Below are positions 45,666-62,802 of a DNA stretch of 64,000 nucleotides, one piece after another. The DNA comes from Fodinicola acaciae (GTDB lineage Bacteria; Actinomycetota; Actinomycetes; Mycobacteriales; HKI-0501), in contig NZ_WOTN01000001.1 of the NCBI RefSeq assembly GCF_010993745.1, positions 1,739,235-1,803,234 on the forward strand, given 5' to 3'. The notes under the pieces are model-generated. The model did no database searches and had not been told where the DNA came from. It worked only from the letters and a program-made list of their open reading frames with translations. Position 1 is the stretch's first letter. Every line of letters starts with the position of its first letter. Made by a program: the position numbers and the translations under genes.

Positions 45666-45999
45666 TGCGGTTGCCCTCTTTCAGACCGATTCGGAAGCCG
45701 GCGTTGCTCGTGTCCTGACACGGGAATCCGGCGACGAGGGCGTCGACTTCTGCGACTCGGCTCCAGTCGACTGCGGTGATGTCGCCGAGATTTGGTACGC
45801 CTGGATACCGGTGCTTGAGGAGGGTCGCGACATACGGATCTGAGTCCGCACACCAGACGACCTCTCCGTCGAGCACGTCGATCGCCGCTGCGTCGAGGCC
45901 GCCGTATCCGGTGCAGAGCGAGCCAATGCGTCGCTTCCTCGACGAAGCGCCACTGGATGAGATCGACGCCGCGTCGAGTGGACGCCTCCGCGCCTTCAT
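45439..45999 (-). CDS. DNA cytosine-5 methyltransferase, N-terminal part
   Basis: 186 residues from an ATG with GAGGG upstream. RIGSLCTGYGGLDAAAIDVL is the SAM-binding motif I; VDALVAGFPCQDTSNAG holds the catalytic PCQ loop (motif IV); FVENVPPLRVRGL is the ENV motif VI; and SDVGAAHNRDRMFILG is motif VIII. The frame stops right after motif VIII and the rest follows in another frame. With one base change it would be a complete orphan methyltransferase that could protect the element from restriction. Confidence 0.72.
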   Translation of the reverse strand: MKARRRPLDAASISSSGASSRKRRIGSLCTGYGGLDAAAIDVLDGEVVWCADSDPYVATLLKHRYPGVPNLGDITAVDWSRVAEVDALVAGFPCQDTSNAGFRIGLKEGNRSGLWLTIADAIRVLRPPLVFVENVPPLRVRGLDRVQTDLAALGYDTAWMCVRASDVGAAHNRDRMFILGLRGRQA

Positions 46000-46019
46000 A
46001 TGGCCCTCGGTGCAGCCGT

Positions 46020-46628
46020 CTAATCCGGCCATTTGCGCCACCAATGCGGCCATCGATATCCGGCTGCGATCTCGGCGGTAATCGAGCTCGGAGATGAGCC
46101 TGGAGCGGTGTACGCGTACGTCGTCGCAGCGTCGTCGCTGACCGGAATTCGGCTCCACGTCCACCCCATGGCGCGCAGCGCCGGGACGTAGCCAGCGCGG
46201 GTGATCAGCCGCTGGTATCCGAGTCCAAATACAGCACGTCGAGCGGCGCCGTACATCATGGCGGCCGCGTGGTTCGCGGACCGATATCGGAAGACGTACG
46301 TGTCCGTCAGTTCCAACGTCACGCCGTCGTCCGCGCCGCTGCCGATGGCCGCGTCGGCAGCAATCGTGACGGCGACTGGCCGCGCGTCCATTGCGCATGC
46401 CCGGCTCAGAATCTCATCCACTTCGTCAACGGATCCCATCTCCGAAGCTGTCGACCGACGGCGGGCGAAAGGGCGGCCGTCGGCGATGTCGAAGACCGCG
46501 ATCGCCAGGCGGTCACGTCGGCGGGACGTGCCTCGAACTGGGTAGCGATGATCAAGTGCGTCCCGCGGCTGCACAGCGATCCAGGCTCGTGCGCCGCGTA
46601 CGGAAACGGGAACAAGGACGAGGCTCAC
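46020..46628 (-). CDS. XF1762/GNAT-like hypothetical protein (paralogue of the gene at 40736)
   Basis: 202 residues from a GTG with GAAGGGA upstream. TDTYVFRYRSANHAAAMMYGAARRAVFGLGYQRLITRAGYVPALRAMGWTW parallels YGTAWRAAQALGYRRAITYT in the gene at 40736, suggesting distant homology. The N-terminal part (AVFDIADGRPFARRRSTAS) is different. Function unknown; proteins of this type travel with methyltransferases in phages and integrative elements, as here. Confidence 0.55.
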   Translation of the reverse strand: MSLVLVPVSVRGARAWIAVQPRDALDHRYPVRGTSRRRDRLAIAVFDIADGRPFARRRSTASEMGSVDEVDEILSRACAMDARPVAVTIAADAAIGSGADDGVTLELTDTYVFRYRSANHAAAMMYGAARRAVFGLGYQRLITRAGYVPALRAMGWTWSRIPVSDDAATTYAYTAPGSSPSSITAEIAAGYRWPHWWRKWPD

Positions 46629-48508: not shown

Positions 48509-48720
48509 ATTTTGCTGGTGCGGTGTTCGGTTTCCGGCCTCCGGCAGGCATTTGACCGGTTGAGGGGAACACCCGACCGCCCGTGCCACGACGCGGGGTG
48601 TTTGCCCCTCCGCCCCGGAGGCCGGACGAGCCCGACCTCTTCGGCCTCCGGGGACCACGACAGGTGCCGCGGCATGTGCCGCCGGACCGCATCCGCCCAC
48701 CGAAGCCAGGTAGGTATTCC
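48509..48720. ncRNA. highly structured leader before the pilin gene
   Basis: CCGGCCTCCGG at 48533 (A) is the exact complement of CCGGAGGCCGG at 48614 (B). B, extended to CCCCGGAGGCCG, is also the exact complement of CGGCCTCCGGGG at 48641 (C). A-B and B-C pairings exclude each other. Inside A-B, GAGGGGAACACCC (48561) pairs with GGGTGTTTGCCCCTC (48595). A GC-rich hairpin around GGTGCCGCGGCATG follows before the ribosome binding site AGGTAGG. There is no T-tract. An RNA switch, attenuator or DNA-level transfer site are all possible. Confidence 0.55.
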
Positions 48721-49128
48721 ATGCCGACGACCGGCGCCACCCTTACCCCCGACGAGGATTCGCATCCGTACATGCGGAACGTCCTTCGCTTCGTTGCTCT
48801 TCCGGTATTCACGATCGTCGTTGGCCTCGCTGCGATGACCGTTCTGACGTACGCCGAGCCGTCGTACGCAGCGCCGCCGAGTTCCAGCGAACCACTGGCG
48901 ATCGCCGGCTCGCTAGGCGAGGTCATCGGCAACGTCAAGGCCTGGTTGACCGGACTCGCAGTCGCCGTTTGGGGAGCGATGTTCGTCTACGGCGCACTTC
49001 TCTATTCGGCAGCCGGCATCGGAACCAAGGAAATGGGGAAGCAGACGATGCGATACGCGTGCATCGGTTTCGTCTTGACGATGCTGGCGCCACTCGCGCT
49101 GACGATCCTGCAGGGATTCGTGGACTGA
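48721..49128 (+). CDS. VirB2/TrbC-like pilin subunit
   Basis: 135 residues. A first hydrophobic stretch (FVALPVFTIVVGLAAMTVLTY) with a likely cleavage after SYAAP, then two membrane helices (WLTGLAVAVWGAMFVYGALLYSAAG and MRYACIGFVLTMLAPLALTIL). Size and topology are those of VirB2/TrbC-type major pilins of actinobacterial type IV systems. It heads the transfer operon, two bases before the VirB6-like gene. Confidence 0.75.
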   Translation: MPTTGATLTPDEDSHPYMRNVLRFVALPVFTIVVGLAAMTVLTYAEPSYAAPPSSSEPLAIAGSLGEVIGNVKAWLTGLAVAVWGAMFVYGALLYSAAGIGTKEMGKQTMRYACIGFVLTMLAPLALTILQGFVD

Positions 49129-49129
49129 A

Positions 49130-50878
49130 ATGTCGTCGACTTCCACCACCTCACGCGGCCATTTCCGCATTCGCCGCATCGCGCTCGTGAGCTTGCTTGT
49201 GGCACTCGCGATCAGCGGTTTGGTCGTGGGAATCGCACCCGGATCCCCCGCTTCGGCCGCGCCCTGCGAACCGTCGCGCCCAACCCCCAAACCGACGATC
49301 TATCTGCCGCCAGGACCGCCCATACCGAAGCCGTTTCCCACCTGCGACACGCCGGCACCTGCGGTCTCCCCGCCACCGACCGACGCGCCACCAGAATCCG
49401 TCAATCCGGTCACGGGATGGATAACGGATGCGATCGCACAATGGTTCGCCGGCGTCGTCGCATTGACCCTGAACCCGGTCCTTGAATTCCTTGGCCAGAC
49501 GGTCCTGACGACGCCAGATCCGACCCAGGATGGCCGTGTACATCAACTGTGGGACGCCGCTCGACTGGCCGTGAATGTGGCGTACGTGCTGTTCATTTTG
49601 GTCGGCGGATTCATCCTCATGACGCGCGAGAGCGTCCAATCCCGGATAGGTCTCCGGGAGATCACGCCGCGACTGGTGATCGGCTTTATCGCCGCGAACA
49701 CCAGCAGCTTGGTGATATCAAAGGCGATAGAACTAAGCAACGCCGTGACGGCCGCGGCCGTGGGCGTTGGAGTTGATCCGGCAGCTGTGTCCGTAGCCGT
49801 TCGGCAGATGGTTGGCAACGAGCTCAACGGACTCGGATTTCTCGCAAATCTGCTTCGGATAGCGATCATCGTGATGGCGTTGATGGTCGTCGTCACGTTC
49901 ATCGTACGGATGGCGGCGATGGTGTTGCTGACTGTTGCCGCACCACTCGCGCTCGCCTGCCATGCGCTGCCGCAAACTGAGAAAGTCGCATTCATTTGGT
50001 GGCGTACGCTCACCGCGTGCCTGGCTTCACAAGTCGGCCAGGCGTTTTGTCTCGTGGTCTTCCTACGGGTATATCTGTCGCCGGCCGGCCGAACATTGTT
50101 CGGCATTCCAACGGGTGGCACCGCCTGGGTGAACATCCTGGTCGGGCTCTGCCTGTTGTGGCTGACTGTAAAGATCCCCTTCTGGGCTCGACGCGCTGCC
50201 TTCGGAGGATCCACCGGCCGATCGCGAATCATCAGCATCATCAAGACCATCGTCATTGCCAAGACCCTTGGCGCCCTTGGGGTCGGCTTCGGCGGAGCGA
50301 GCAAAGTCAGACCCAGTCGTACGGCAAAGCTGGCCCCTAAGACGCTCCCATCGGCGACACGACGGCGTCCCGCAACCGGTGGACCCAGGCGACGGCCGCC
50401 GCACAAGCCGGCTCCGAAACCCACGGCTGCAACACGCGCTCCGAAGGCAACGTCCGCGACCTTTTCTAATGCGCCGATCAATCAAGTTCCGCGGTCGACG
50501 CCGACCGGCGCAGCCTCGACTGCGACGTTTAGTCACGCACCTTCTGCCGCGACCCCACCACCGAAGCCGAAGACCCCGCCACCGACGGCGGCGTTCTCCA
50601 GTGCACCCAAACCGGGTCATCCGGTATCGACGTCGACCACACCCCCACGGACGACGACGTTCAGCAATGCGCCCGGTACGGATCAACCGCGCCGTACGCC
50701 GCCGTCACCGCCTCACACGAGTTTCAGCGATGCACCTAAGTCACAGGCAGCGCATCCACGGTCTGGCTATGCCGCTCGACCGACCTTCTCTGACCAGGCG
50801 CCGCTGCCGCCAAAGAAGGTCGTTCAGAAACCACGAACGCCACCCGTGCGGCGATCACCGGAGGGAGGTCAGCCGTGA
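49130..50878 (+). CDS. VirB6/TrbL-like polytopic conjugation protein with repeat tail
   Basis: 582 residues. A signal-like N terminus (LVSLLVALAISGLVVGIA...ASAA), a Pro-rich stretch, then five or more membrane helices between about 95 and 370, including VAYVLFILVGGFILM, IAIIVMALMVVVTFIVRM and ILVGLCLLWLTVKIPFW. The C-terminal ~200 residues are a Pro/Ala-rich soluble tail with six regularly spaced [TA]FSxAP motifs. The core matches VirB6/TrbL-type channel proteins next to the PrgI and VirB4 genes. It overlaps the next gene by four bases. Confidence 0.82.
   Translation: MSSTSTTSRGHFRIRRIALVSLLVALAISGLVVGIAPGSPASAAPCEPSRPTPKPTIYLPPGPPIPKPFPTCDTPAPAVSPPPTDAPPESVNPVTGWITDAIAQWFAGVVALTLNPVLEFLGQTVLTTPDPTQDGRVHQLWDAARLAVNVAYVLFILVGGFILMTRESVQSRIGLREITPRLVIGFIAANTSSLVISKAIELSNAVTAAAVGVGVDPAAVSVAVRQMVGNELNGLGFLANLLRIAIIVMALMVVVTFIVRMAAMVLLTVAAPLALACHALPQTEKVAFIWWRTLTACLASQVGQAFCLVVFLRVYLSPAGRTLFGIPTGGTAWVNILVGLCLLWLTVKIPFWARRAAFGGSTGRSRIISIIKTIVIAKTLGALGVGFGGASKVRPSRTAKLAPKTLPSATRRRPATGGPRRRPPHKPAPKPTAATRAPKATSATFSNAPINQVPRSTPTGAASTATFSHAPSAATPPPKPKTPPPTAAFSSAPKPGHPVSTSTTPPRTTTFSNAPGTDQPRRTPPSPPHTSFSDAPKSQAAHPRSGYAARPTFSDQAPLPPKKVVQKPRTPPVRRSPEGGQP
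50459..50800 (+). repeat. six periodic [T/A/S]-F-S-x-A-P motifs in the VirB6-like tail
   Basis: The motif starts at 50459, 50525, 50591, 50657, 50720 and 50783, a period of 66, 66, 66, 63 and 63 bases (22 or 21 residues). Variable residues are N, H, S, N, D and D(Q). Between motifs the sequence is Pro/Thr/Lys-rich and poorly conserved. This is a protein-level tandem array, not a recent DNA duplication. Confidence 0.8.
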
Positions 50879-51882
50879 ACGACTACGACCCGTATGGCAC
50901 AACGAGGCTACCTGCCGACGTCGACCGGCCAGACACCCTGATGTTCGGCCTCAGCGCCCGCCAACTCCTCATCCTGGGCGTAGTCGGCCTGGCGTTGTGG
51001 GGGCTGTGGATGCTCTCCGCCCCTCATCTGCCAATTCCCGTTCTCGCCTGCATCACGCTGCCAATCGGCGCTGCTGCGCTCGCGGTAGCGGTCGGCCGCC
51101 GCGACGGCGTGACGCTCGATCGCTGGATCGTCGCCGCGGCCCGACACCAACTCCGACACAAACACCTCGTCTCCGTCGACGCAGGCGGAGCTGGCGAGGG
51201 GCCGCCGCCGTGGGTGCGACGTTCGGCGCGGAGCACGCAGCCCGCCGTACACGCATCGCCTGGCCTGCTGCACATGCCCGTTCGCGACGTCACCGATACC
51301 GGCGTGCTGGATCTCGGACGCGATGGCTACGCGGCGTTGGCCGCCGCCGGGACTGTCAATTTCGCGCTGCGGACCGCCGATGAGCAGGCCGCTCTGGTCG
51401 CCGGATTCGGATCGTGGTTGAACACACTGGACGGTCCGGCGCAGATCGTCGTACGCACTCACCGAGCCGACCTCGCCACGCTCGCAGACCGCATCACCGA
51501 CATCGCTCCCGCGCTGCCCCATCCGGCCTTGGAATCCGCCGCCCGGTCGCACGCCGACTTCATCCGCGACCTCAGCGACCGGCACGAACTTCTCCACCGC
51601 GGTGTACTGATCGCCGTACGCCAACCTGAGTCCGGCGCGCACGCCGCCGCCCGCGCAGCGCATGCGATCGAACGGACAACCCACGCACTGGCCGGATGTG
51701 GGATCACCGCGAGCGTGCTCGACGGGCCGACCGCTCAGTGGGTCATCGCCGACACCGCCGACCCCTACCGCGACGACTACGACGATCCGACAGCCGAGGC
51801 GTCGTACGCACCGCCTGACGCGATCATCACCGCCGCCGGCCGTTTGGCGCCCACCTGGACCACAACAGAAGGGCCGTCGTGA
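50875..51882 (+). CDS. PrgI-family / SCO6880-like conjugation protein
   Basis: 335 residues. RLPADVDRPDTLMFGLSARQLLILGVVGLALWGLWML and IPVLACITLPIGAAALAVAVGRRDGVTLDRWI give the two N-terminal helices and linker of PrgI/VirB3-like proteins. The C-terminal 200 residues resemble the N-terminal domain of VirB4 partners. The gene overlaps the VirB6-like and VirB4 genes, the usual order in Gram-positive type IV systems. Confidence 0.8.
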   Translation: MNDYDPYGTTRLPADVDRPDTLMFGLSARQLLILGVVGLALWGLWMLSAPHLPIPVLACITLPIGAAALAVAVGRRDGVTLDRWIVAAARHQLRHKHLVSVDAGGAGEGPPPWVRRSARSTQPAVHASPGLLHMPVRDVTDTGVLDLGRDGYAALAAAGTVNFALRTADEQAALVAGFGSWLNTLDGPAQIVVRTHRADLATLADRITDIAPALPHPALESAARSHADFIRDLSDRHELLHRGVLIAVRQPESGAHAAARAAHAIERTTHALAGCGITASVLDGPTAQWVIADTADPYRDDYDDPTAEASYAPPDAIITAAGRLAPTWTTTEGPS

Positions 51883-53657
51883 TGCGGAACCTGCTGGCAG
51901 GCCTGCTCCGCGTCAACGACGATGCCGAGGATGTCGACCGTCGGATAGCGCCCGACGGCGTGGAAGTCAGCGCCCGGCAGGTCCGCGCGGGCAACGGGTA
52001 CGCCGCCACCTTGGCGATCACCGGCTATCCGGCGGAGGTCCCGAGCGGCTGGCTTGAGCCGCTGATCACCTTCCCCGCGCGGGTGGATGTGTCGCTGCAC
52101 ATCGAGCCGATTCCGTCTCTAGTCGCCGCCCGGCAGCTGAAGAAACAGCGGGAGCGGTTCGAATCTCAACGCCGTTTTGCTGCCCAGCACGGCCAACTGC
52201 ATGACCCTGAGGTCGAGGCAGCCGCGTACGACGCCGCCGACCTTGCCGGACGACTTGCCCGCGGTCACGACCGGCTCTATCGCCTCGGCCTGTACCTCAC
52301 CGTGCACGCAGAAACCGAGAATGCACTACAACGCGACCTAGCCGACATCCAAGCGTTGGCCGACTCCATGCTCCTGCAGGCGACGCCGGTGACGTGGCGC
52401 GCCTTGGAAGGTTGGTCATCGACACTGCCCGTCGCGGTCGACGCGCTGTGTCTGACCAGAGTCATGGACACGTCCGCGTTGTCGTCGGCCTTTCCATTCA
52501 CGAGCGCGGACTTGCCTGGGCCGGATCCGACACGGCCGACCGAGTTCGGCGACGGCATTCTTTACGGCACCAACGTCAGCTCGCCCGGCGTCGTGGTGTG
52601 GGATCGGTGGGCCTGCGACAACGCCAACATGGTCGTACTCGGCCGCTCCGGCGCCGGCAAATCCTATTTCGGCAAGCTCGACCTGCTGCGCAATCTCTAC
52701 CTCGACAGCGACGCCACCGTCATCGACCCCGAAGACGAGTACGTCGCGCTCTCGGAGATGGTCGGCGGCACGACGATCCATTTCGGCCGGCCCGGCGTAC
52801 GCATCAATCCGTTCGACCTGCCAGCTGCGGCTTCGCCTGACTCCGATGCAATACCCGGCACGGACAGCCTGACCGGGCAGGCGCTCTTCTTGCACACGCT
52901 CATCGGTGTGCTGCTGAAACAGCCATTGTCTGCGACCGAGGCATCGACCTTGGACACCGCGATCATGGATGCGTACCGCGGTGCCGGCATCAGTCTCGAC
53001 CCAAGAACGTGGCGTCGGCCCGCGCCTGTTCTCGCCGATCTCTCAACGGCTCTCCGGACACACGGTGAGATCGGGAATGCGATCGCTGATCGCCTTGCAC
53101 CGTACGTGACGGGCAGCCATCGAGCACTTTTCGACGGCCCTTCCACGATAACGCCCGGCGGGCACCTAACCGTTTATTCGTTGCGGCAGCTGCCGGAGGA
53201 GTTGCACGCCGCCGGCACGCTCCTCGTCCTCAACGCCATCAGCCGCACCATCGCGGACCCGACGCGTACGCGCCGACACCTCATCTACGTCGACGAGGCC
53301 TGGACCCTGCTCCGCGACGGAACCGGAGCGCGCTTTCTCTTCCGGGTCGCGAAGTCCATCCGCAAAAACAACGGCGCCCTAGTTGTCATTACTCAAGACG
53401 TTGACGACGTGCTTCACAGCGACCTCGGACGCGCAGTCATCAACAACGCAGCGACGTACGTCTTGCTAGGACAGGCCCCTCAGGCTCTCGATGCCGTCAC
53501 CAGCGCGTTCTCACTCACCGGCGGCGAGCGTACGGCGCTCTCCACGGCCCGGCGGGGGCACGCGTTGCTGATCGCCGGCGCACATCGCGTCGGATTTCTC
53601 GCCCAAGCCAGCGCCGAAGAAGAGCGCGTCATTCGCACAGACCCAGACTTCCGCTAG
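51882..53657 (+). CDS. virB4: VirB4/TraC-type conjugative ATPase
   Basis: 591 residues from the ATG at the preceding stop (TGATG); GTG three bases earlier is possible. Walker A VVLGRSGAGKSYFGK near 253-262, then VIDPEDEYVALSEMVGG, and Walker B HLIYVDEAWTLLRD near 466 followed by VVITQDVDDVLHSDLG (sensor). The energy-providing ATPase of type IV secretion/conjugation. The most diagnostic gene of the transfer module and fully intact. Confidence 0.92.
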   Translation: MRNLLAGLLRVNDDAEDVDRRIAPDGVEVSARQVRAGNGYAATLAITGYPAEVPSGWLEPLITFPARVDVSLHIEPIPSLVAARQLKKQRERFESQRRFAAQHGQLHDPEVEAAAYDAADLAGRLARGHDRLYRLGLYLTVHAETENALQRDLADIQALADSMLLQATPVTWRALEGWSSTLPVAVDALCLTRVMDTSALSSAFPFTSADLPGPDPTRPTEFGDGILYGTNVSSPGVVVWDRWACDNANMVVLGRSGAGKSYFGKLDLLRNLYLDSDATVIDPEDEYVALSEMVGGTTIHFGRPGVRINPFDLPAAASPDSDAIPGTDSLTGQALFLHTLIGVLLKQPLSATEASTLDTAIMDAYRGAGISLDPRTWRRPAPVLADLSTALRTHGEIGNAIADRLAPYVTGSHRALFDGPSTITPGGHLTVYSLRQLPEELHAAGTLLVLNAISRTIADPTRTRRHLIYVDEAWTLLRDGTGARFLFRVAKSIRKNNGALVVITQDVDDVLHSDLGRAVINNAATYVLLGQAPQALDAVTSAFSLTGGERTALSTARRGHALLIAGAHRVGFLAQASAEEERVIRTDPDFR

Positions 53658-53815
53658 AACGCCGGGCGTACGCGATGAGACGCGACGCGCCCGGCCGGTA
53701 TCCGCCGAGCGTCGGTCAACCTGCGAGCGCCTCGCTCCATGTCGCTCTCAATGCGTCCGCCGCAGGAGTTCGGCTGCCGCTGCTTCGAGGCCTTCACCAT
53801 CTCCAGGAGCCTGCC

Positions 53816-54511
53816 ATGCCCGCAGCAGAAACGACCCCCGCCGATCCCTCTGTCGACCCGCAGGCCCCGACATCGCGCTGTCGCCGGCGACATCCAGTCG
53901 CCGGGGTGGCATCCGGTCTGCTGCTGGCCGCCACAGTCGTCGCCGCCAACACGATGACAACGCGACTCGGTGTGGTACAGATCGGTTTCGGGCTGGCAGC
54001 ACCCGCCGGCGTTTACGCGGTCGGTCTGCTGCTCGTCCTGCGCAATGTCGTCCAGGCCGCGCTCGGCAGCCGAGGTGCGTGGGCGGTCGTGTTCGCTGGC
54101 ACAGGACTGTCGTTGGCGACCGCTGACGCAAACATTGTCCTTGCCAGCGGAGCGGCATTCGCGTTCTCCGAGACACTCGCGCTCGCAGGATTCGCCCTGC
54201 TGGAGCGCCGGTGGCCCGCACTGTGTCTCGTCGTATCGGCAGCCGCTGCAGCGATCGCCGACAGCATGGTTTTCCTTTTCCTCGCCTTCGGCCCACCGAC
54301 ATTGTGGACGCTGCTCCCCGGCCAACTCCTCGGCAAGACGTTGGGTGCTCTAGCGGCTCTGCTCGTTCTCCGCGTTCTGGGGTTGGCTGTTCGGCTCGCC
54401 GCAGGCCTTGTCATCCGTCGTGCTATCGGTCCAGCTGTCAGTTCCGTTCTGGGCGCCGTTGCCGATGCGTTGACCGCTGCAAACGCCCGACGCCGAGACG
54501 ACGCCAGATGA
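53816..54511 (+). CDS. VUT-family transporter (YhhQ/QueT-like, candidate 7-deazaguanine uptake)
   Basis: 231 residues, ATG with AGGAG six bases upstream. About six membrane helices with the VUT signatures GLLLAATVVAANTMTTRLG, GFGLAAPAGVYAVGLLLVLRNVVQAALG, FSETLALAGFALLERR and IADSMVFLFLAFG...PGQLLGKTLGAL. VUT proteins include YhhQ, which imports the queuosine precursors preQ0/preQ1. Its stop codon overlaps the ATG of the transglycosylase-like gene (ATGA), so precursor import and base exchange are probably coupled. Specific substrate is inference from that pairing. Confidence 0.8.
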   Translation: MPAAETTPADPSVDPQAPTSRCRRRHPVAGVASGLLLAATVVAANTMTTRLGVVQIGFGLAAPAGVYAVGLLLVLRNVVQAALGSRGAWAVVFAGTGLSLATADANIVLASGAAFAFSETLALAGFALLERRWPALCLVVSAAAAAIADSMVFLFLAFGPPTLWTLLPGQLLGKTLGALAALLVLRVLGLAVRLAAGLVIRRAIGPAVSSVLGAVADALTAANARRRDDAR

Positions 54512-55281
54512 GGTTCTACCTCGGCACACATCACCCCCACTGGCTACGTACCATCGAAGTGCCGCTGTTCATCTCCGATCGGACGCTGCGTCGTTATCGG
54601 ACGCTGCCAACCGCGTCGGGACTGTGGGCGCTGGACTCCGGCGGGTTCACCGAACTGACCAGATATGGCGGCTGGCATCGCAGCCCAGCGCACGCGTACG
54701 CCACCAGGGTCCAGCGCTACCACGATGAGATCGGTGGGCTCGTATGGGCCGCGCCGCAGGATTGGATGTGCGAGCCGCAGGTGCTCGCGGCCACCGGCCA
54801 AACGGTCGCCGAGCACCAGCGCCGGACCGTCATGAACTACCTCCGACTGCGGCGCATCACGCCAAACCTGCCCTTCATCCCTGTTCTTCAAGGGTGGACC
54901 AGCCGCGAATACCTCGACTGCGTAAGCCGGTACGAAGACGCCGGAGTGGACCTGGCATCCGCGCTCGTGGTGGGGGTCGGCTCGGTCTGTCGCCGGCAGG
55001 GCACCGCCGACTCGGCTGCGATCTTCACCGCAATTCACACACGCGTTCCCGGGATCCGGGCACACGGATTCGGCGTCAAGACCTCGGGACTCGCACTTTA
55101 CGGCCACCTGCTTACGAGCGCAGATAGCCTCGCCTGGTCGCTGGCAGCGCGATTCCGTCCACCGCTTCCCGGCTGTCACCGACATGGCAGCTGCGCCAAC
55201 TGCCCCCGATTCGCACTCCGTTGGCGAAACGAGGTACTCGCCAACCTCCAACAGGCCTCCAGAAAGTCTTGCTTGCAATGA
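54508..55281 (+). CDS. dpdA: DpdA-like (TGT-family) transglycosylase, candidate 7-deazaguanine DNA-modifying enzyme
   Basis: 257 residues. LWALDSGGFTELTRYGGW (Asp43-Phe47) matches the TGT-type DSGGF active-site loop. AAPQDWMCEP near 81-90, AEHQRRTVMNYLRLR, LPFIPVLQGWT, VGVGSVCRRQ and HGFGVKTSGLALYGHL follow, with a Cys/His zinc-like cluster at 223-232 (GCHRHGSCANCP). This set is characteristic of the small DpdA-like proteins of actinobacteriophages and integrative elements, which are thought to exchange guanine for 7-deazaguanines in DNA. Tight coupling to the transporter supports a salvage route. Activity is not proven. Confidence 0.78.
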   Translation: MRFYLGTHHPHWLRTIEVPLFISDRTLRRYRTLPTASGLWALDSGGFTELTRYGGWHRSPAHAYATRVQRYHDEIGGLVWAAPQDWMCEPQVLAATGQTVAEHQRRTVMNYLRLRRITPNLPFIPVLQGWTSREYLDCVSRYEDAGVDLASALVVGVGSVCRRQGTADSAAIFTAIHTRVPGIRAHGFGVKTSGLALYGHLLTSADSLAWSLAARFRPPLPGCHRHGSCANCPRFALRWRNEVLANLQQASRKSCLQ

Positions 55282-55389
55282 CGGTTGGCCGGCGGGCATT
55301 TTTCGTTCCTGCAAGCGCGAATCGGCCCAAGAAATCGCAACAGATCCAACCTTCAGCAAATCGAGCTGAACCAATTCTCAGGAGGACCC

Positions 55390-55656
55390 ATGCCTCACCA
55401 GACTCGTACCGCCGACAACCAGTCCACGTCTTTCTCCGCCGAGCGTCCGCAGTGCATCGGACGGGCTTCTGTCCATACGCCCCTGCCGCGCTTCAGTCGA
55501 GAGCAGCTCCGCTTCATCACGCTGGTCTGTGTTCTCACCGGCTTCGGAACCGTCGCCGCCGGAAGCGCCGTCCTCATGGTCGCCTATCTCTTCTACGCCG
55601 TTCTCGCGATTCGGTCCGGTGTCTACGTGATGTCCGGGTGGCCGTACCTGCGGTAG
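55390..55656 (+). CDS. small membrane protein
   Basis: 88 residues from ATG with AGGAGGA upstream. One long hydrophobic region, LRFITLVCVLTGFGTVAAG plus SAVLMVAYLFYAVLAIRSG, likely a helical hairpin near the C terminus; the first 45 residues are polar. Unrecognised, but situated between the DpdA-like and coupling-protein genes and probably part of the transfer complex. Confidence 0.6.
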   Translation: MPHQTRTADNQSTSFSAERPQCIGRASVHTPLPRFSREQLRFITLVCVLTGFGTVAAGSAVLMVAYLFYAVLAIRSGVYVMSGWPYLR

Positions 55657-55668
55657 GTGAAATTCGGG

Positions 55669-56808
55669 ATGGACGTTCGGTCGTTCGAGCTACCGCTCAC
55701 TTATCTCCCATACTTTTTGGCTGCCGGCGCGATAATCGCGCTCTCGTGGTTGCTTGCCAAGGCATTCCTGACGAAGCGTGCACGATCAATGGCCGTCTGG
55801 GTCGAGATCACCGTTCCCGAGGCGCTTCAAGCACGGCAGGTGGCGGCGCTATGGCGGCTCGTGGCAGGCATTCTGCCGGCCGCCCGATGGTGGCGCTTGA
55901 CGCCTGGTCACGTGACATTCGAGGTCCACGCCGCCGCTGACCGGCTGCGATGCGGCCTCTGGCTTCCGCCGTCGGTTCACCCTTCCCCGGTGATGCGAGC
56001 CGTTGTTCGCGCCTGGCCAGGTGCCGCTGCAAGCATCACGACTCCGCCGACACTTCCTGGTGATCTGTCCGTCCTCGGCCGTCGCCTCCGATATCGCGAG
56101 ACCGGGTGGGACCAACTGCGGGAAGACGACAAACCCTCGACCAGCCGTACGTCCTCAGCCCGCAGCGATGATTCGCATGCCGTGTACGACGCGCTCGTCG
56201 CGGCCAGCAACGCAGGAGCAGGGATACTCCAGATAGCTGTCAGCCGGCCGCCGATGCGGCGGCTCGGCGTACTGCGCGAGGCGGCTGGCACAAAGCCACA
56301 GGCGGGCCTGAACGCAACGATTGCAAAGCTGCCGCTAGCTGTGGCCCGTTGGCTGCTCGAAGCCGTCGTGGATTTGATCGGCCCCAGCAACTCGACTCAG
56401 CTCAGCAGTCAGGCCAACGTAAAGCGCGACGACCCGTACACGGTTCGGCTCGCGCGTCGTAAGCTCGCCGGCGCACCGCATTTCGTCGTCGACGTACGCG
56501 CGGCAGTCGCGTGCAAGTCCCGGCGAAAAGCGTCGACCATTGCAGCCGATATCACCCGTGGCTATGCGGTCTTGACGAATGCGCTGCTGCCTATCCCCTG
56601 GTGGTTCGCTCGGAAGGCTGTCGCACGGCGTGATCTGCCGGGTCGGATGTCGATTCTGACGACAGCTGCCGAAGCGGCTGTGCTGATTCCTCTACCGGCA
56701 GAGCCGACGCTCTACGCGATGCCAGCCGCACCCGGCCGTCAGCGACCGGCGAGCACCGAGCTTTGGTCGCCGGATCCCGCGGCGTGGTCCAGATCCGACC
56801 ATCTCTGA
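55669..56808 (+). CDS. membrane-anchored conjugation protein of unknown function
   Basis: About 379 residues; ATG with AGGTGA upstream chosen over the in-frame GTG immediately after the previous stop. An N-terminal helix (LPYFLAAGAIIALSWLLAKAFL) anchors a long soluble domain (VWVEITVPEALQARQVAALWRLVAG; FHFVVDVRAAV-like AGAPHFVVDVRAAVACKSRRKASTIA). Proteins of this layout precede TraG/VirD4 genes in actinobacterial elements. It ends 19 bases before the coupling ATPase. I recognise no named family. Confidence 0.65.
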   Translation: MDVRSFELPLTYLPYFLAAGAIIALSWLLAKAFLTKRARSMAVWVEITVPEALQARQVAALWRLVAGILPAARWWRLTPGHVTFEVHAAADRLRCGLWLPPSVHPSPVMRAVVRAWPGAAASITTPPTLPGDLSVLGRRLRYRETGWDQLREDDKPSTSRTSSARSDDSHAVYDALVAASNAGAGILQIAVSRPPMRRLGVLREAAGTKPQAGLNATIAKLPLAVARWLLEAVVDLIGPSNSTQLSSQANVKRDDPYTVRLARRKLAGAPHFVVDVRAAVACKSRRKASTIAADITRGYAVLTNALLPIPWWFARKAVARRDLPGRMSILTTAAEAAVLIPLPAEPTLYAMPAAPGRQRPASTELWSPDPAAWSRSDHL

Positions 56809-56827
56809 CGGGCAGGAGGGCGACACC

Positions 56828-58297
56828 GTGCCGCGACCTGTCCTGCGCAAGAAGACGACGGCATCTGCGGACACCGGAGTCGCCGAGTCACAACTCCGGC
56901 TTGTCCCACCCGCTCAACGAGGCGGCCCGCAAGGCAAGGTGCTCGGCTACACGACTGTCGGCCGCCGGATCCCCGCCGGCGTTTCGCTGGTCGACGGCCG
57001 GCATCACTTCTCGGTGCTTGGGCCCACCGGCGTCGGCAAGTCGACGCTGCTGACGAACATGGCCGTGCAGGAAGCCACTGCCGGCCGCGGAATCGCCGTA
57101 CTCGATCCCAAAGGCGACCTCATCCGCGACATTCTCGACCGGCTTGCGGCCGACTGCGGCGACCGCTTGGTGCTGATCGATCCGGACGACCCCGACGCGA
57201 TGCCGGCGATCAACCTGCTGGATCTCACTGTCGCCGGTGGCTCGGCGTACCGTGCGGCCGCCACGACGACATCAGTGATGGGCCAACTGTGGGCACGTTG
57301 GTGGGGCCACCGCTCGGCGGATATCGCGTACCACGCAGCCCTCACCTTGTCGCAGTTTCCCGGCGGAACTCTCGGCCAAATGTCCCGCCTGCTCGTCGAC
57401 GATGTTTGGCGCCGCGGTGTCGTTTCCTCAGTCCGAGCAGATCTGGGGCCGGCTCGCGAGGGAACGATCGGCGAGTTCTGGCATAGCTGGGACCGCCTCC
57501 CGCCAGGAAATCGCATCACGTCTGCGGCGCCGCTGCTCGCCAAACTCCGGATGGTCCTGGGACATCCGCTGCCGGCCGGGATCTTCGGCGTACCGCGTAC
57601 GACCTTCCGGTTCGACCAGATCCTAGACGGCGCGATTCTTCTCGCGCGTCTGCCGAAGAACGAGATCGGACCCGATGCGGCTCGTTTAGTCGGATCGATG
57701 TTGACGACGGGCCTGATCAATGCTGCCGGCGCACGGGCTCGACAGGTCGAAGACGAACGGCTCGACTGCACGATCATCTTGGACGAGGCACATAACTTTC
57801 TCCATCTGCCGATCGGAGTAGACGACGCGCTGGCCGAGCTGCGCGGCTTTCACGTATCGTTCGTGCTCGCGAACCAAATTCTCGGGCAGCTAACTGGACC
57901 AATGCAGGCGGCAATCGATGGGAACGCCCGCAACAAGGTATTCTTTACCTTGGAAGCAGGCGATGCGCGCGAACTGGCCCGGCACGTCGCACCGTACCTC
58001 GACGAACAAGACCTTCGTCGGTTGCCGGCTTATACGATCGCGCTTCGGCCAATATCCGGCTCGCGTCCGATACCGCCGGTCACATTGCGTACGCTCGGGA
58101 CGTTGGCACCCGTAGCAGGCCGCGCGGAAATGCTACGAAAAGCCGCTCGCGCGACGACGGGGATCGCCGAAAGGGAGCGCGCCAAACTGCACGTACCGGC
58201 TGCCGTTTCGTTTCTCGGCAGCGATGCCATACCTGGATGCGAACCCAACGATTCAGCCATGCTCCTGGACATTGACGAGTCGAATCTTGACTGGTGA
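56828..58297 (+). CDS. VirD4/TraG-type coupling ATPase
   Basis: 489 residues. Walker A FSVLGPTGVGKSTLLTNMA near 62-78, GIAVLDPKGDLIRDIL, Walker B CTIILDEAHNFLHLPIG near 313, then FVLANQILGQLTGPM (sensor). The T4SS coupling protein that docks the relaxase-DNA complex at the channel. No N-terminal membrane helices are visible; anchoring may come from the preceding protein. Full-length and intact, and the last gene of the transfer operon before the palindrome. Confidence 0.87.
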   Translation: MPRPVLRKKTTASADTGVAESQLRLVPPAQRGGPQGKVLGYTTVGRRIPAGVSLVDGRHHFSVLGPTGVGKSTLLTNMAVQEATAGRGIAVLDPKGDLIRDILDRLAADCGDRLVLIDPDDPDAMPAINLLDLTVAGGSAYRAAATTTSVMGQLWARWWGHRSADIAYHAALTLSQFPGGTLGQMSRLLVDDVWRRGVVSSVRADLGPAREGTIGEFWHSWDRLPPGNRITSAAPLLAKLRMVLGHPLPAGIFGVPRTTFRFDQILDGAILLARLPKNEIGPDAARLVGSMLTTGLINAAGARARQVEDERLDCTIILDEAHNFLHLPIGVDDALAELRGFHVSFVLANQILGQLTGPMQAAIDGNARNKVFFTLEAGDARELARHVAPYLDEQDLRRLPAYTIALRPISGSRPIPPVTLRTLGTLAPVAGRAEMLRKAARATTGIAERERAKLHVPAAVSFLGSDAIPGCEPNDSAMLLDIDESNLDW

Positions 58298-58820
58298 TGA
58301 CCTGGCCAACTGGCTGGCTCTTTGAGTGGCGCGCTCAATGGCGCTTTGGGTGGGTCTGGAGAGAGCCGCCTGGCGCGCTCGCATTTTCCCTGGCCGGCAG
58401 GGGCGCGGCCGGATGGAAAACGTCTCCGACTGGTCTACGACCAGAGTGAAAGAGGTGTGCGACCCAGCCTCCGCTGGCACCTACCGGTGGAGCGGGTGCT
58501 GAGTCACACCCCTCTTTCATTCTGGTCTCCGCCTAGCGGCGGCCTCGGCGGCCTCGGCGGCTCGCCGGCGGAACTGGCAGCTGCTCCCGTCTCGGCGACG
58601 TTGGCGGCCTCGACGTGCGCCCCCAAAAGAAAAAGTGCCAGTAGCGCCACCGTACCAGATTTTCGTTACAGAGAGCCCAGAGTCGTCACATAAAATTACC
58701 AGCCACTGACTCTTGGCAAGCATCCGAATTGGTCGATAGCTTTCCATCAGTCGGATGGTTGGGACGGCAACCCTGAACATCCGACCCACCCAATCAATCA
58801 ACGCTAGGGATGTGGTCGGC
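58298..58820. repeat. 523-base gap with a nested 71-bp palindrome (candidate oriT or terminator)
   Basis: The segment from 58448 starts GAAAGAGG and is matched by an inverted copy ending CCTCTTTC at 58518. The two 21-base arms agree at 18 positions without gaps. The 29-base loop contains a further CTCCGC/GTGGAG stem. Downstream GGCGGCCTCGGC repeats run from 58535 to 58565. An open frame on the minus strand here looks like a shadow. Nested palindromes after the coupling-protein gene are a common setting for an origin of transfer. Confidence 0.5.
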
Positions 58821-59621
58821 GTGTCAAACGATCTCTGTTGCCCCCGTGTCGAACAGTTCTTTATCGGCGTCGAGAGCGAGCCGACCGTACGGGCGGTACT
58901 GGACGACATGGAGACTGACTCGGCGGCGAGCGCTGCGATCAGAGAGGTTCTCGACTGTTTCCCCGGACGTGACTCTTCCCTGTATCTCGTCGACATGCTG
59001 CGGAAGATCAGCCTTGACGACTTCTCACCCGGGAACGATCTCTCCGCGCTGGAGCGCTATTCGGACCGCGGTTCACGGCTCTATGAGCTTGAAAAGTACG
59101 GAATCGTCACTGACGTTGACGGATGGCACGAAGACTCGAGTGGCGCCTACCTCTCGGACGGGCGTGGTCTCACTACCTTCTACGTCCCCCGCACCGTGAT
59201 TCCCGTCGAGGTTCTTTACCACTTCCCGGAGTATTGGAGTGGACGCAGTTGCTCTGCCTCGCACTGGGAGATCACGGACACGTTGGCTCGCGTGCCCGCA
59301 GGCTGGTATCTGCTTGGCGAAACGGGCGACCACCGCATGTCGACCGTCGGCGTAGCCTATCTCGGCCTTTCGTCGGACGTGCCGTCCGATCTGGTTTGCT
59401 ACGCCGCAGAGGTCGAGGGATTTATGGCTTCGCGGTGCGATGCTCGGTGCAATTCGTGCGAGTCTCGGTGGTTCGCCGAGTCTGGCTCTTGGAAATTTGA
59501 GCCGGAGTACGGCTGCGCTGCCGATCCGTGGATGTTCGACGATGCTGAAGACTTTGACGTCGACGACTGCGTCAAGTGTCCGTACTGCATCGTGGGACGC
59601 GTCGGTTTCCTCGTCTACTGA
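58821..59621 (+). CDS. hypothetical protein with C-terminal zinc-ribbon-like cysteines
   Basis: About 266 residues from GTG with AGGGA upstream; start uncertain. Acidic N-terminal region (VESEPTVRAVLDDMETDSAAS), then VPAGWYLLGETGDHRM and at the end CDARCNSCESRW followed by CVKCPYCIVG, which together could bind one zinc. No family recognised. It lies beside ardA and could be another anti-defence or regulatory protein of the element. Confidence 0.6.
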   Translation: MSNDLCCPRVEQFFIGVESEPTVRAVLDDMETDSAASAAIREVLDCFPGRDSSLYLVDMLRKISLDDFSPGNDLSALERYSDRGSRLYELEKYGIVTDVDGWHEDSSGAYLSDGRGLTTFYVPRTVIPVEVLYHFPEYWSGRSCSASHWEITDTLARVPAGWYLLGETGDHRMSTVGVAYLGLSSDVPSDLVCYAAEVEGFMASRCDARCNSCESRWFAESGSWKFEPEYGCAADPWMFDDAEDFDVDDCVKCPYCIVGRVGFLVY

Positions 59622-59699
59622 CAGCGCTCACCTGAGACACCGCCCACCGGAGAGCGCTACGCGCGCTCTCCATCCCTCTGCCTGACTTGAAGGTACAAC

Positions 59700-60206
59700 A
59701 TGCGCACAGATAATCCGACCATCTACGTATCAGATCCCGCCCATCAGCGCGGTGCGTGGATCGATGCGACGCAAGACCCCGAAGATATTCGACTCGAGAT
59801 AACGGACCGAGTTAAAACGGAAGAGTACACGATTTTCGACTACGACGGCTTTGGTCCCGTAGAAATTCGCGAGTACGCACCGCTGGACGTAGTGTCCCGG
59901 GTCGCACAAGGTATCAAAGAGCACGGCAACGCGTTCGCACACTGGGTCACCGACGTGCTCGGCTCTGTGGACTATCTCTCGGAGCCTTCGAGGTTTGAAG
60001 ACGCGTACCTCGGCACTTGGAAAGACGTCGAGGCATACGCCGACAGTCTCATCGATGACATGGGGTGGTACGCAGTCATGGAAGAGCACAGGATTCCGAT
60101 CGGCTACTTCGACATCAAGGCATTCGCGCGAGACCTGGTGCTCGGCGGCGACATCGCCGCCTCCGAAGATGGCCTTGAGGTTCACATCTTCGATCCCCGT
60201 ATCTGA
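59700..60206 (+). CDS. ardA: ArdA-like antirestriction protein
   Basis: 168 residues, strongly acidic (pI should be low). TIYVSDPAHQRGAWIDATQDPEDI, YTIFDYDGFGPVEIREYAPLDVVSRVAQGI and GYFDIKAFARDLVLGGDI match ArdA. ArdA mimics bent B-DNA and blocks type I restriction enzymes while the element enters as single strands. The usual three-domain length is present. A perfect terminator-like hairpin follows. Confidence 0.88.
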   Translation: MRTDNPTIYVSDPAHQRGAWIDATQDPEDIRLEITDRVKTEEYTIFDYDGFGPVEIREYAPLDVVSRVAQGIKEHGNAFAHWVTDVLGSVDYLSEPSRFEDAYLGTWKDVEAYADSLIDDMGWYAVMEEHRIPIGYFDIKAFARDLVLGGDIAASEDGLEVHIFDPRI

Positions 60207-60493: not shown

Positions 60494-61363
60494 ATGACTG
60501 AGAACGCCACCCCGCGCAGGCTCGCCGCGGAGCTCGCACGCCTGACGCCTCGCGACAAATGGCTTCTCCGCATGCTTCGCGAACATCAGACACTGACGAC
60601 CGAGCACATCACCGAGTTGAGCTATCAAAGCGCGCATCGCGCTCGCAAACGGCTCTTTCTGCTGTACAAGCGCGACGTACTCGACCGCTGGCGTCACCAC
60701 GTGCGGCCGGGATCGCAGAGCTGGCGGTGGACCGTCGGACCCATCGGCGCTGCCTTGCTGCATGCAGAAGCAGGCAAAGACATTCCTCGGCCCGCGACCG
60801 TACGAGCGGCAACGGATCGGCTCGCGGCCTCGACAACCGAACACCTTCTTGGCATCAACACGTTCTTCGTGCGTCTCTTCTCGTTTGCACGTACCAATCC
60901 GCGGTACAAACTCTTGAGTTGGCTGTCAGAGCGAAGTGCGACTAACGCGGTTCAAGGCATCGTACGGCCCGACGGGTACGGCATCTGGCGCGATCACGAC
61001 GCTCGTACGCCGTTCTGGCTGGAGTTCGACACCGGCACGGAACGGCTGCGTCAGCTGTCGGAGAAACTGACCGGATACGGCCGCCTCGTTGGTACGCAAC
61101 TGAACTTCGCACTGCTGTTCTGGTTCACCTCCGACAACCGCGAATCAAATGCACACAGGCAGCTCACCGCACATACGCCGGCCGGCCTGACTATTGCAAC
61201 GGCAAGCGGAGAGAATGACCGTCATCCGGCCACCGATTGCTGGCGGATCGTTGGCGAATCTCACCGTCGAGTCAGGCTCTCTGAGATCTCACCAACACCG
61301 ATGGACGATGACCTACTTCTACTCGCAAATCATAAGGAGGTGGCGAACAACGACAGGCATTAG
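60494..61363 (+). CDS. replication-relaxation family protein
   Basis: 289 residues, ATG preceded by AAAGGA. PRDKWLLRMLREHQTLTTEHITELSYQSAHRARKRLFLL is a winged-helix start, and VRPDGYGIWRD...FWLEFDTGTERL a nuclease-like EFD core. Both are characteristic of the replication-relaxation proteins of actinobacterial plasmids and integrative elements. Likely role: DNA processing at the transfer or replication origin. It could act at the palindrome near 58480 (inference). Confidence 0.78.
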   Translation: MTENATPRRLAAELARLTPRDKWLLRMLREHQTLTTEHITELSYQSAHRARKRLFLLYKRDVLDRWRHHVRPGSQSWRWTVGPIGAALLHAEAGKDIPRPATVRAATDRLAASTTEHLLGINTFFVRLFSFARTNPRYKLLSWLSERSATNAVQGIVRPDGYGIWRDHDARTPFWLEFDTGTERLRQLSEKLTGYGRLVGTQLNFALLFWFTSDNRESNAHRQLTAHTPAGLTIATASGENDRHPATDCWRIVGESHRRVRLSEISPTPMDDDLLLLANHKEVANNDRH

Positions 61364-61453
61364 CAAGTAGTCGAGCAGCGGCCGATGGCTCTAGGACGGC
61401 AACCCGAAGAGCCATCGGAAGTCCACTCATTCCAACCACATCGAGGTTCCGCT

Positions 61454-61951
61454 ATGACCGCGTTTCCCACCCCGGACGCCGGCGAGCCCCCAGCCGTCGA
61501 TCCCGATCTGTTTGGCGATCCCTCAACCGCGGCACCGCTTCGGGCGATCCTCACCAAGCCCCTTCCTTGCGGCACGGTAATCCACTTTCTCGACAACAAC
61601 GAAGACGTGCTCTTTGCAGAGGTCTTCCTTGGCGCCTCCGATACCGGCGGCTCCGTTGGTTGCCTCACCGTCTCAGAGCTTGAGCGCGCCAGTGTCGCCG
61701 AAGTCCTTGCTGCCTCCGAAGTGCGTAACGGTGGTACGACGGCCGTGATCGTCGTCCCCAAAATGTTCTCAGTCGTCGACGTGCAGCGGCTGGAGACGCC
61801 AGGCCCGTCCGCCGATCCGCCGGTCGGCGTCTCTCGGCGGCCTATTGCCGCCGGCGCGTACGTCGTCTGGCGTTCGCTGATCACCACGCCGGCCGTGTGC
61901 GTCTGGTACGTCGGCCCGCTGCAGCGCCGAGTCGAGGGCGGGCGAATCTGA
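61454..61951 (+). CDS. hypothetical protein
   Basis: 165 residues, ATG with GAGG upstream. PDLFGDPSTAAPLRAILTK, LPCGTVIHFLDNNEDVLF and VIVVPKMFSVVDVQ suggest a compact alpha/beta domain. No family recognised. It overlaps the DUF2637 gene (TGATG), so they are translated together. Confidence 0.55.
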   Translation: MTAFPTPDAGEPPAVDPDLFGDPSTAAPLRAILTKPLPCGTVIHFLDNNEDVLFAEVFLGASDTGGSVGCLTVSELERASVAEVLAASEVRNGGTTAVIVVPKMFSVVDVQRLETPGPSADPPVGVSRRPIAAGAYVVWRSLITTPAVCVWYVGPLQRRVEGGRI

Positions 61952-62802
61952 TGAACGAGATCAACCACGACGATCCGGAGCCCCACGAGACCGAACCGTT
62001 TGAGAGCGCCACCCAGACGGCTCCCACAACGACGGCGCGGCGGAACGGAGACATCGGCACGACCGTCGGCCTGTTGGTCGTCGGGGCAGGATCCGGGCTC
62101 TTGTCGTTGGCGACATGGGCGAACCTCTCCGACCTCGTAGGAGTCACGACCACCGTACGGATCCTCGGCGTCTCCATCAGGATGGCGTGGCTCCTGCCGC
62201 TCATCGTCGACGCATTCCTGATCATCACGACTCGCGACTGGCAGCGGCCGGCGCATGCGATCTCCGAGGGCACTCGCGCGCTCGCACGTCGGTGCGCCAT
62301 CGGCGCTGTGATCGTATCCATCCTCGCCAACGCGATCTATCAAGCCCTCACAACTCCGGGTGGCATCACCCGCCTGCAGTGGTGGATCGCGGTCTTCGTC
62401 GCCGCGATGCCGCCGGTCATGTTTGCCCTCGCCGCACACCTACGCGCGCGGCATCGCAGCGACCGCGAGCATCCGACCGCCGTCGACACTTCATCCGCGG
62501 GCTGCGGTCATGACCTGACCAAAGTCGAGAAGATGCGCGCGCACTGGCTGAACGAGACAGCCACCGGTCGTACGCCGAGCAGTGCCGAGCTCGCACGTAC
62601 GGCAGGGGCGTCGCTATCGCACGCCCGTGCCGAGCGCCGGGGCTGGCTCCGCGAGTTCAAGGATGCGCAGCAAACTAAGACGCCAGGTGGCAGCGCGCCC
62701 ACGGACCGGGCCGACTCGGATCTGAGCATCGATAGCGCAGCCGGCTTGCCGGAAACCGGCCGACCCACGGCCATCGTCAACGGTGCAAGGCCTCGACCCT
62801 GA
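61951..62802 (+). CDS. DUF2637-type membrane protein of mobile elements
   Basis: 283 residues. After a polar N terminus, four helices: TTVGLLVVGAGSGLLSLATWANL, RMAWLLPLIVDAFLII, RRCAIGAVIVSILANAIYQAL and WWIAVFVAAMPPVMFALAAHL. The order matches DUF2637 (SpdB-like) proteins linked to plasmid spread. The C-terminal third is soluble, with a helix-turn-helix-like phrase (TPSSAELARTAGASLSHARAERR). An excisionase or replication role for that domain is possible. Confidence 0.75.
   Translation: MNEINHDDPEPHETEPFESATQTAPTTTARRNGDIGTTVGLLVVGAGSGLLSLATWANLSDLVGVTTTVRILGVSIRMAWLLPLIVDAFLIITTRDWQRPAHAISEGTRALARRCAIGAVIVSILANAIYQALTTPGGITRLQWWIAVFVAAMPPVMFALAAHLRARHRSDREHPTAVDTSSAGCGHDLTKVEKMRAHWLNETATGRTPSSAELARTAGASLSHARAERRGWLREFKDAQQTKTPGGSAPTDRADSDLSIDSAAGLPETGRPTAIVNGARPRP

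Follow-up and report, generated by a model that had tools for sequence, protein, structure and literature searches.

Among described systems, the closest to the locus analyzed here are those in which DpdA modifies DNA with 7-deazaguanines and those in which a transporter salvages such bases from outside. According to Hutinet et al. 2019 (PMC6884629), the DpdA of phage 9g was by itself sufficient for dPreQ0 in E. coli, and dPreQ0 was measured in the DNA of phage Rosebush. For phage Orion, which they group with the DpdA-only phages, no modification could be detected in M. smegmatis, a null result that the authors expected, since neither phage nor host makes preQ0. They also ask whether singleton DpdAs have diverged and leave open what the synthesis-less DpdA phages use and whether their DpdA works. 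As for the transporters, excerpts of Zallot et al. 2017 (PMC5372724) identify YhhQ/COG1738 as a preQ0 transporter and place COG1738 in bacteria that are devoid of tRNA-guanine transglycosylase (TGT) and carry deazapurine DNA modification genes. YhhQ is present in about 9% of dpd islands, with salvage proposed, in the excerpted GATOR-GC preprint (PMC11888242), and fusions termed QPTR-bTGT figure in an excerpt of PMC11130926. Within the parts of the literature consulted (among PMC6884629, PMC5372724, PMC11888242, PMC11130926, and PMC9837993), some phages are said to carry YhhQ, with no correlation to group.

The window, by which we mean the whole 64,000-nt stretch that was analyzed (C1:1739235-1803234 of the 8.86-Mb genome of the soil actinomycete Fodinicola acaciae, rated 100% complete), encodes a VUT/YhhQ-like transporter (VUT) and a DpdA-like transglycosylase in overlapping genes of a transfer operon. 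Judged from titles and excerpts, we recognized no published description of VUT and DpdA genes paired within an operon for conjugation. Our favored reading, which we hold to be probable, is that the pair forms a salvage-type 7-deazaguanine DNA modification cassette, in which an imported base would be exchanged into DNA by DpdA.

The gene pair and its transfer operon

The genes of the element are ordered pilin-like, TrbL-like, PrgI, VirB4, VUT, dpdA, conserved ORF, coupling protein, ORF, ArdA, and Replic_Relax (Table 1). Coordinates and profile matches bear out the first-pass annotation in placing the VUT and DpdA genes between VirB4 and the coupling protein, with an ATGA overlap through which their translation is likely coupled. 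Elsewhere in this genome (C3:980000-999000), a related conjugative element contains a second VUT-dpdA pair, ArdA, and Replic_Relax in matching order, and its DpdA is 73% identical to that of the window. Between these two copies, dN is 0.20 and dS 1.0 for dpdA (dN/dS about 0.20), versus 0.45 and 1.25 for vut (dN/dS about 0.36); both genes appear to be under purifying selection, at dS values near saturation. The window gene order is also found in Fodinicola feengrottensis, where VUT-dpdA lies between VirB4 and the conserved ORF at a locus without an ArdA match, many of whose genes have broken frames, perhaps reflecting assembly quality. A relative of the window DpdA occurs in two of the three genomes examined from the host's family.

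Table 1. Features of the transfer operon and its flank, in window coordinates
Feature	Position	Strand	Basis
T4SS pilin-like protein	48583..49128	+	PF18895, 1.2e-9
TrbL-like T4SS membrane protein	49130..50878	+	PF19597, 2.9e-4, under gathering score; conserved in related elements
PrgI-family T4SS protein	50875..51882	+	PF12666, 4.4e-17
VirB4-type transfer ATPase	51879..53657	+	Profile match; homologue in C3 element, 72% aa identity
VUT/YhhQ-superfamily transporter, 231 aa (predicted 7-deazapurine importer)	53816..54511	+	Vut_1, phrog_4899, hhalign, predicted fold
ATGA stop/start overlap of VUT and dpdA	54508..54511	+	Sequence
DpdA-family transglycosylase, 257 aa	54508..55281	+	PF23859, phrog_1279, predicted fold, residue conservation
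Conserved 383-aa element protein, dpdA to coupling protein	55657..56808	+	Homologues at the same place in the C3 element (L020) and F. feengrottensis (L031)
VirD4/TraD-type coupling protein	56828..58297	+	PF10412, 1.9e-6; TIGR03743, 5.4e-7, under its cut-off
ArdA antirestriction protein	59700..60206	+	PF07275, 2.3e-26; also in own C3 element
Replication-relaxation family protein (Replic_Relax)	60494..61363	+	PF13814, 1.2e-37; C3 element, 6.9e-45

The element is probably self-transferring. Its earlier description as an integrative and conjugative element is plausible; the type IV secretion system (T4SS) ATPase and the coupling protein are present, and no integrase or classical relaxase was recognized among the scanned ORFs (a part of the total) of the window and the C3 element. 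Control of the pair by a preQ1 riboswitch is disfavored, none being present among the Rfam matches to positions 50000 to 60000 (four, all sub-threshold), and PADLOC returned no match. Long ORFs without a Pfam match (359, 420, 460, and 884 aa) lie at its right side (window 61360-62439, minus strand; locus L021 2288-7714, minus strand), where neither a boundary nor an integrase was found. An ORF at 45439-46398 (minus strand) matches only the first half of a C5-cytosine DNA methylase domain (PF00145, 1.1e-29, profile positions 3-163 of 324); the second half is absent from the one neighboring ORF tested (44931-45662), and the gene may be truncated.

Identity of the transglycosylase and the transporter

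The assignment of the second protein to DpdA, made in the first-pass annotation, holds: it matches the Pfam DpdA profile PF23859 at 1e-95 (320.5 bits against a cut-off of 27), without a Pfam match to TGT, and phrog_1279 of PHROGs at 7.9e-98. Its predicted structure (pLDDT 96.4, pTM 0.92), compared with TGT/DpdA folds as that annotation had advised, confidently models as a TGT/DpdA barrel. Foldseek ranks the DNA preQ0 insertase DpdA (7ui4) first, at E 1e-7, with TGTs next, and VIA returns what amount to ties (Z 20.1 for archaeosine tRNA TGT, 19.4 for DpdA, and 19.2 for bacterial TGT), the best extending over 236 to 238 residues. The link to these structures is made by fold and not by sequence, comparisons of which with PDB chains and E. 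coli TGT gave nothing useful; by itself, the modeled fold does not tell a DNA from a tRNA substrate.

Five residues of the window DpdA (D43, D85, Q128, G158, and D206) are invariant in 118/118 rows of an alignment that kept 117 relatives out of the 139 that remained once redundancy among 169 had been removed. They follow the order and similar spacing of D89, D143, Q187, G213, and D264 of E. coli TGT, a correspondence drawn from motif and order and not from model coordinates; we take the latter to be active-site positions, comprising the catalytic Asp pair and base binding. The Asp pair, whose absence the first-pass annotation had named as fatal to its reading, is present. A zinc-like motif, C223-H226-C229-C232, is conserved to differing degrees across the same 118 rows (Cys in 80 or His in 27, His in 114, Cys in 103, and Cys in 118, respectively).

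The transporter falls within the Vut_1/YhhQ superfamily, of which it is a divergent member. Its match to Vut_1 (PF02592) is marginal (4.5e-6; 27.5 bits, cut-off 27.2), and its score against the NCBIfam YhhQ equivalog TIGR00697 is under the cut-off (22.7 versus 50.95 bits); in PHROGs it matches phrog_4899 (1.7e-23). The family profile built from it gives an hhalign match to E. coli YhhQ (95%, 2.7e-8), and a search from E. coli YhhQ retrieved 23 ORFs in its first round and 50 after iteration, all 40 that were listed adjoining dpdA. We consider this transporter family related to YhhQ, a link seen from both search directions. At the level of predicted structure (pLDDT 91.5), the first 16 VIA rows are ECF S components with Z of 9.6 to 6.6, unrelated folds reaching at most 5.8, values that may run modest for a helical protein such as this; some of these rows we assigned to the S-component type from what we presume to be their family, the rest by title. 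Foldseek alone offered BioY at E 0.09. Sequence comparison with PDB chains yielded nothing useful, and the link to ECF S components is thus one of fold.

Two altered sites set this transporter lineage apart: N77 and A122 of the window protein, shared by its C3 copy, take the place of an Asp that is present in E. coli YhhQ and, at each site, in 31 of 34 aligned rows (33 of 34 relatives were kept for the alignment, a truncated one being left out). Since no residue is universal in COG1738 according to the excerpt of PMC5372724, the two Asp residues are no formal criterion of membership. Their replacement suggests that substrate or coupling may differ, and the purifying selection on both genes makes such a change likelier than decay.

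Recurrence of the pair in bacteria, plasmids, and phages

The first-pass annotation had called for a search for the same pair in other elements and had presented it as a minimal form of the chemistry; far from being a one-off, the cassette recurs in phages, in plasmids, and in at least two conjugative lineages. With VUT genes identified by a VUT profile iterated to saturation, the pair occurs on the same strand in 16/80 bacterial loci (the best 80 of 143) and 26/90 viral loci (10 plus the best 80 of 278, with L007 and L179 lying on one contig), rates that hold for relatives close to the window DpdA. Thinning the loci at DpdA similarity of at least 90% leaves it in 12/70 and 23/73, respectively. 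VUT is upstream of dpdA in 38 pairs and downstream in four closely alike viral loci; no VUT match occurs elsewhere in those loci, and the VUT of L149 is ~0.7 kb from dpdA. In 36 of the 38 upstream pairs, VUT stops at most 40 nt from the start of the DpdA domain, and in 15 of the 16 bacterial pairs at most 21 nt from it, the frames of the F. feengrottensis locus being too broken to measure.

The alternative of two functionally unconnected genes that lie side by side by coincidence could draw on the fact that the transporter stands at only a quarter (42/170) of DpdA loci, being absent alongside dpdA from 64/80 bacterial and 64/90 viral loci. Random placement of the Pfam matches in 50 genomes would put a VUT gene within 10 kb in about 0.1/80 loci, against 16/80 observed, a disparity that disfavors chance. 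Moreover, both gene orders occur, the junctions are tight, and the transporter family is also found near another transglycosylase family (see below). On a dpdA tree of 119 rows, the pair label needs 16 changes, of which at least five are forced by well-supported branches (in a quick tree, with 45 of 116 inner branches open). Taken with these points, an accidental association is very improbable.

T4SS genes like those of the window lie near 11/16 pair loci versus 2/64 others (p 3e-8), or 7/12 versus 2/58 after thinning (p 2e-5), p-values that are not clean, given that related elements remain and that the markers came from the window; the 90 viral loci have none. The pair resides in two distant conjugative lineages, that of the window and another found chiefly in Pseudonocardiaceae. 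Conjugation and VUT-dpdA genes occupy identical positions in two species each of Prauserella and Amycolatopsis (L088, L091, L092, and L093), which suggests that one element was transferred recently. A DpdA match is present in 110 plasmid records; of four examined, three have a gene annotated VUT and "queuosine salvage" immediately ahead of the DpdA gene, itself annotated hypothetical, and one has no VUT.

Mutual exclusion of VUT and a local QueC gene has no support (local QueC in 0/42 pair loci versus 3/128; p = 1, with a weak QueC-like match of 0.0085 near L046 left out of the counts). Where VUT is lacking, a crude hydropathy count was used to look for different membrane genes upstream of dpdA, and nine such ORFs were read by eye, some of which we take to be plasmid-transfer membrane proteins.

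Among phages, the transporter family extends to neighbors other than PF23859 DpdA. In phage Pam5, a single gene separates a phrog_4899 transporter from a transglycosylase of phrog_887 (gp30), whose label rests on the PHROGs match (1.1e-50) and the record, there being no match to the DpdA profile. In ReqiPine5 and Aoka, the phrog_4899 transporter adjoins, or is one gene from, a phrog_15826 protein (the small ReqiPine5 gp03, Aoka gp40) that is of "unknown function" in PHROGs and has no match to the DpdA profile; "DpdA-like" comes from the annotation of the Aoka depositors and from gp03, which in BLAST weakly resembles the DpdA of Kheth. The annotated genes of Pam5, Aoka, and ReqiPine5 include none named for preQ0 synthesis, although many are hypothetical and ReqiPine5 gp02 is a "PAPS reductase." ReqiPine5 is, by its own annotation, largely collinear with Rosebush. 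Near TerL, it has VUT, gp03, and gp02 (gp02 to gp04) where Kheth has DpdA-QueC-QueD-QueE-FolE (gp2 to gp6); in this sample of one, synthesis looks to have been replaced by import.

For the window DpdA, 391 of 400 matching phage records are from Mycobacterium phages. A profile search of three mycobacteriophage records found no VUT next to dpdA, and the window VUT itself matches five phage records, none from Mycobacterium, in a search of limited sensitivity. Phage Thunderbird gp19 is a PF23859 member, and no VUT or Que gene was found beside its dpdA.

Such solitary genes bear on the alternative that the singleton DpdAs of the window family have diverged, so that they insert a different base or their action on DNA yields no 7-deazaguanine, the transporter bringing in another purine. 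The absence of detectable modification in Orion (PMC6884629, excerpt; likened here through the DpdA-only class of Hutinet et al. and not through PF23859 membership) would fit such divergence, as would the Thunderbird gene, the N77 and A122 changes in the window lineage, and the 20/34 VUT-lacking DpdA genomes that are also without a strong QueC match. Against it stand the five invariant active-site positions and the PF23859 DpdAs of three viral contigs (L136, L146, and L153), which adjoin QueC, QueD, or QueE without a VUT gene and, by this gene neighborhood, tie the family to preQ0. On balance, we regard divergence of this kind as unlikely.

Source and fate of the base, and comparison with known systems

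The first-pass annotation had noted that preQ0 synthesis genes were not visible near the pair and had left the choice between import and host supply; a search of the whole host genome, which it had recommended, found no match for the preQ0 synthesis genes covered (QueC, QueD/PTPS, and QueF), for tRNA TGT, or for the DndB/DpdB family (PF14072). The same profiles match in 14 control genomes (QueC in 12, QueD/PTPS in nine, QueF in eight, TGT in all 14, and DndB in two). The only Vut_1 matches in the genome (that of the C3 copy falling under the Pfam cut-off) and its only relatives of the window DpdA are the two adjacent pairs on the two related elements. By gene content, then, the host would neither make preQ0 nor use it in tRNA, which argues against both host supply and tRNA queuosine, disfavors the former in a genome rated complete, and leaves import as the remaining route.

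Absence of synthesis is no general property of hosts of the pair. We searched 50 host genomes (all 16 with pair loci and a hand-chosen 34 of the other 64, of unstated completeness, which makes absences less sure), leaving out matches with E above 1e-7 as weak. Strong QueC matches occur in 7/16 pair genomes versus 14/34 without the pair (p = 1), so hosts that lack synthesis are not the only ones to carry it. Strong TGT matches occur in 0/16 (one weak, 1.7e-4, in G006) versus 4/34 (p = 0.29), a difference without statistical support. All four TGT-bearing genomes also have a strong VUT match, at most 0.5 kb from TGT in three of them; two transporter kinds thus appear to serve two transglycosylase kinds. 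In three genomes (G006:C34, G019:C42, and G037:C5), weak TGT-like matches lie ~2.6 to 4.4 kb from a strong QueC match, with a VUT gene nearby in G006, and these are possibly separate deazapurine loci.

These VUT-TGT salvage pairs, along with the QPTR-bTGT fusions of the PMC11130926 excerpt, lend some plausibility to the alternative that the window enzyme puts an imported base into tRNA, as a simple queuosine-like salvage in a TGT-less host; it belongs to the TGT superfamily, and VIA ranks an archaeosine tRNA TGT first, albeit in a tie. The Pfam match, the leading Foldseek hit to a DNA DpdA, and the occurrence of DpdA relatives on phages and in transfer operons all point away from tRNA, as does, weakly, the length of 257 aa versus 375 aa in E. 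coli TGT. We judge tRNA to be a distinctly unlikely target, the case for DNA being one of family and context.

For the favored DNA modification cassette, we infer that the co-expressed genes would act in sequence. The transporter would import a free 7-deazaguanine released by other bacteria, most likely preQ0, possibly preQ1 or queuine, and DpdA would swap this base for guanine in DNA by TGT chemistry. From their position in the transfer operon, the two genes may modify the DNA of the element, and probably that of the host too, in the donor or in a new host; such DNA would be poorly recognized by restriction enzymes, with ArdA acting alongside. Restriction evasion is perhaps the purpose, ArdA being nearby in both elements of this genome. 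Points against the favored reading are the two replaced Asp residues of the transporter, the absence of detectable modification in Orion, the QueC frequency that is alike in hosts with and without the pair, the majority of DpdA loci in which the transporter is missing, a fold that is neutral between DNA and tRNA, and the lack of a PADLOC match. More tentatively, it is possible that element DNA is dressed on demand: an auxotrophic element would import a base made only by other members of the community, its DNA chemistry and its success against restriction in recipients would follow supply, and the base, given a transporter without the two Asp residues, may be new to DNA.

If correct, the favored reading would give queuosine salvage a parallel that acts on DNA, carry deazaguanine DNA modification beyond phages and dpd islands into conjugation, and make a DNA modification dependent on cross-feeding. 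The recurring cassette also suggests outside supply as a testable answer for part of the DpdA-only phages, and phrog_4899, a phage family of unknown function in PHROGs, gains a predicted role.

Relative to known systems, the window pair resembles the singleton mycobacteriophage DpdAs (as excerpted in PMC6884629) in having DpdA without preQ0 synthesis genes but differs in its transporter partner and in its location on a conjugative element. It shares DpdA with the Rosebush-type phages (DpdA, QueC, QueD, QueE, and FolE), whose excerpted exemplar has dPreQ0 in its DNA; these phages make their own preQ0, and their DpdA, represented by Kheth (the same virus species as Rosebush per the Kheth taxonomy line), is a distinct subfamily (hhalign, 90%, 1.7e-6) without a Pfam match. 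Bacterial dpd islands (dpdA-K) likewise contain DpdA, whereas the window genome has no DndB/DpdB match, and no restriction part was seen; a dpd island is disfavored. The transporter belongs to the superfamily of YhhQ/COG1738 but scores under the TIGR00697 cut-off and has other residues in place of two conserved Asp. In the VUT-TGT queuosine salvage pairs (here, in three Nocardia genomes), a transporter also adjoins a transglycosylase, which in the window is DpdA, in a genome that has no TGT match. The components are known, and what is new is their recurrence as a cassette on conjugative elements.
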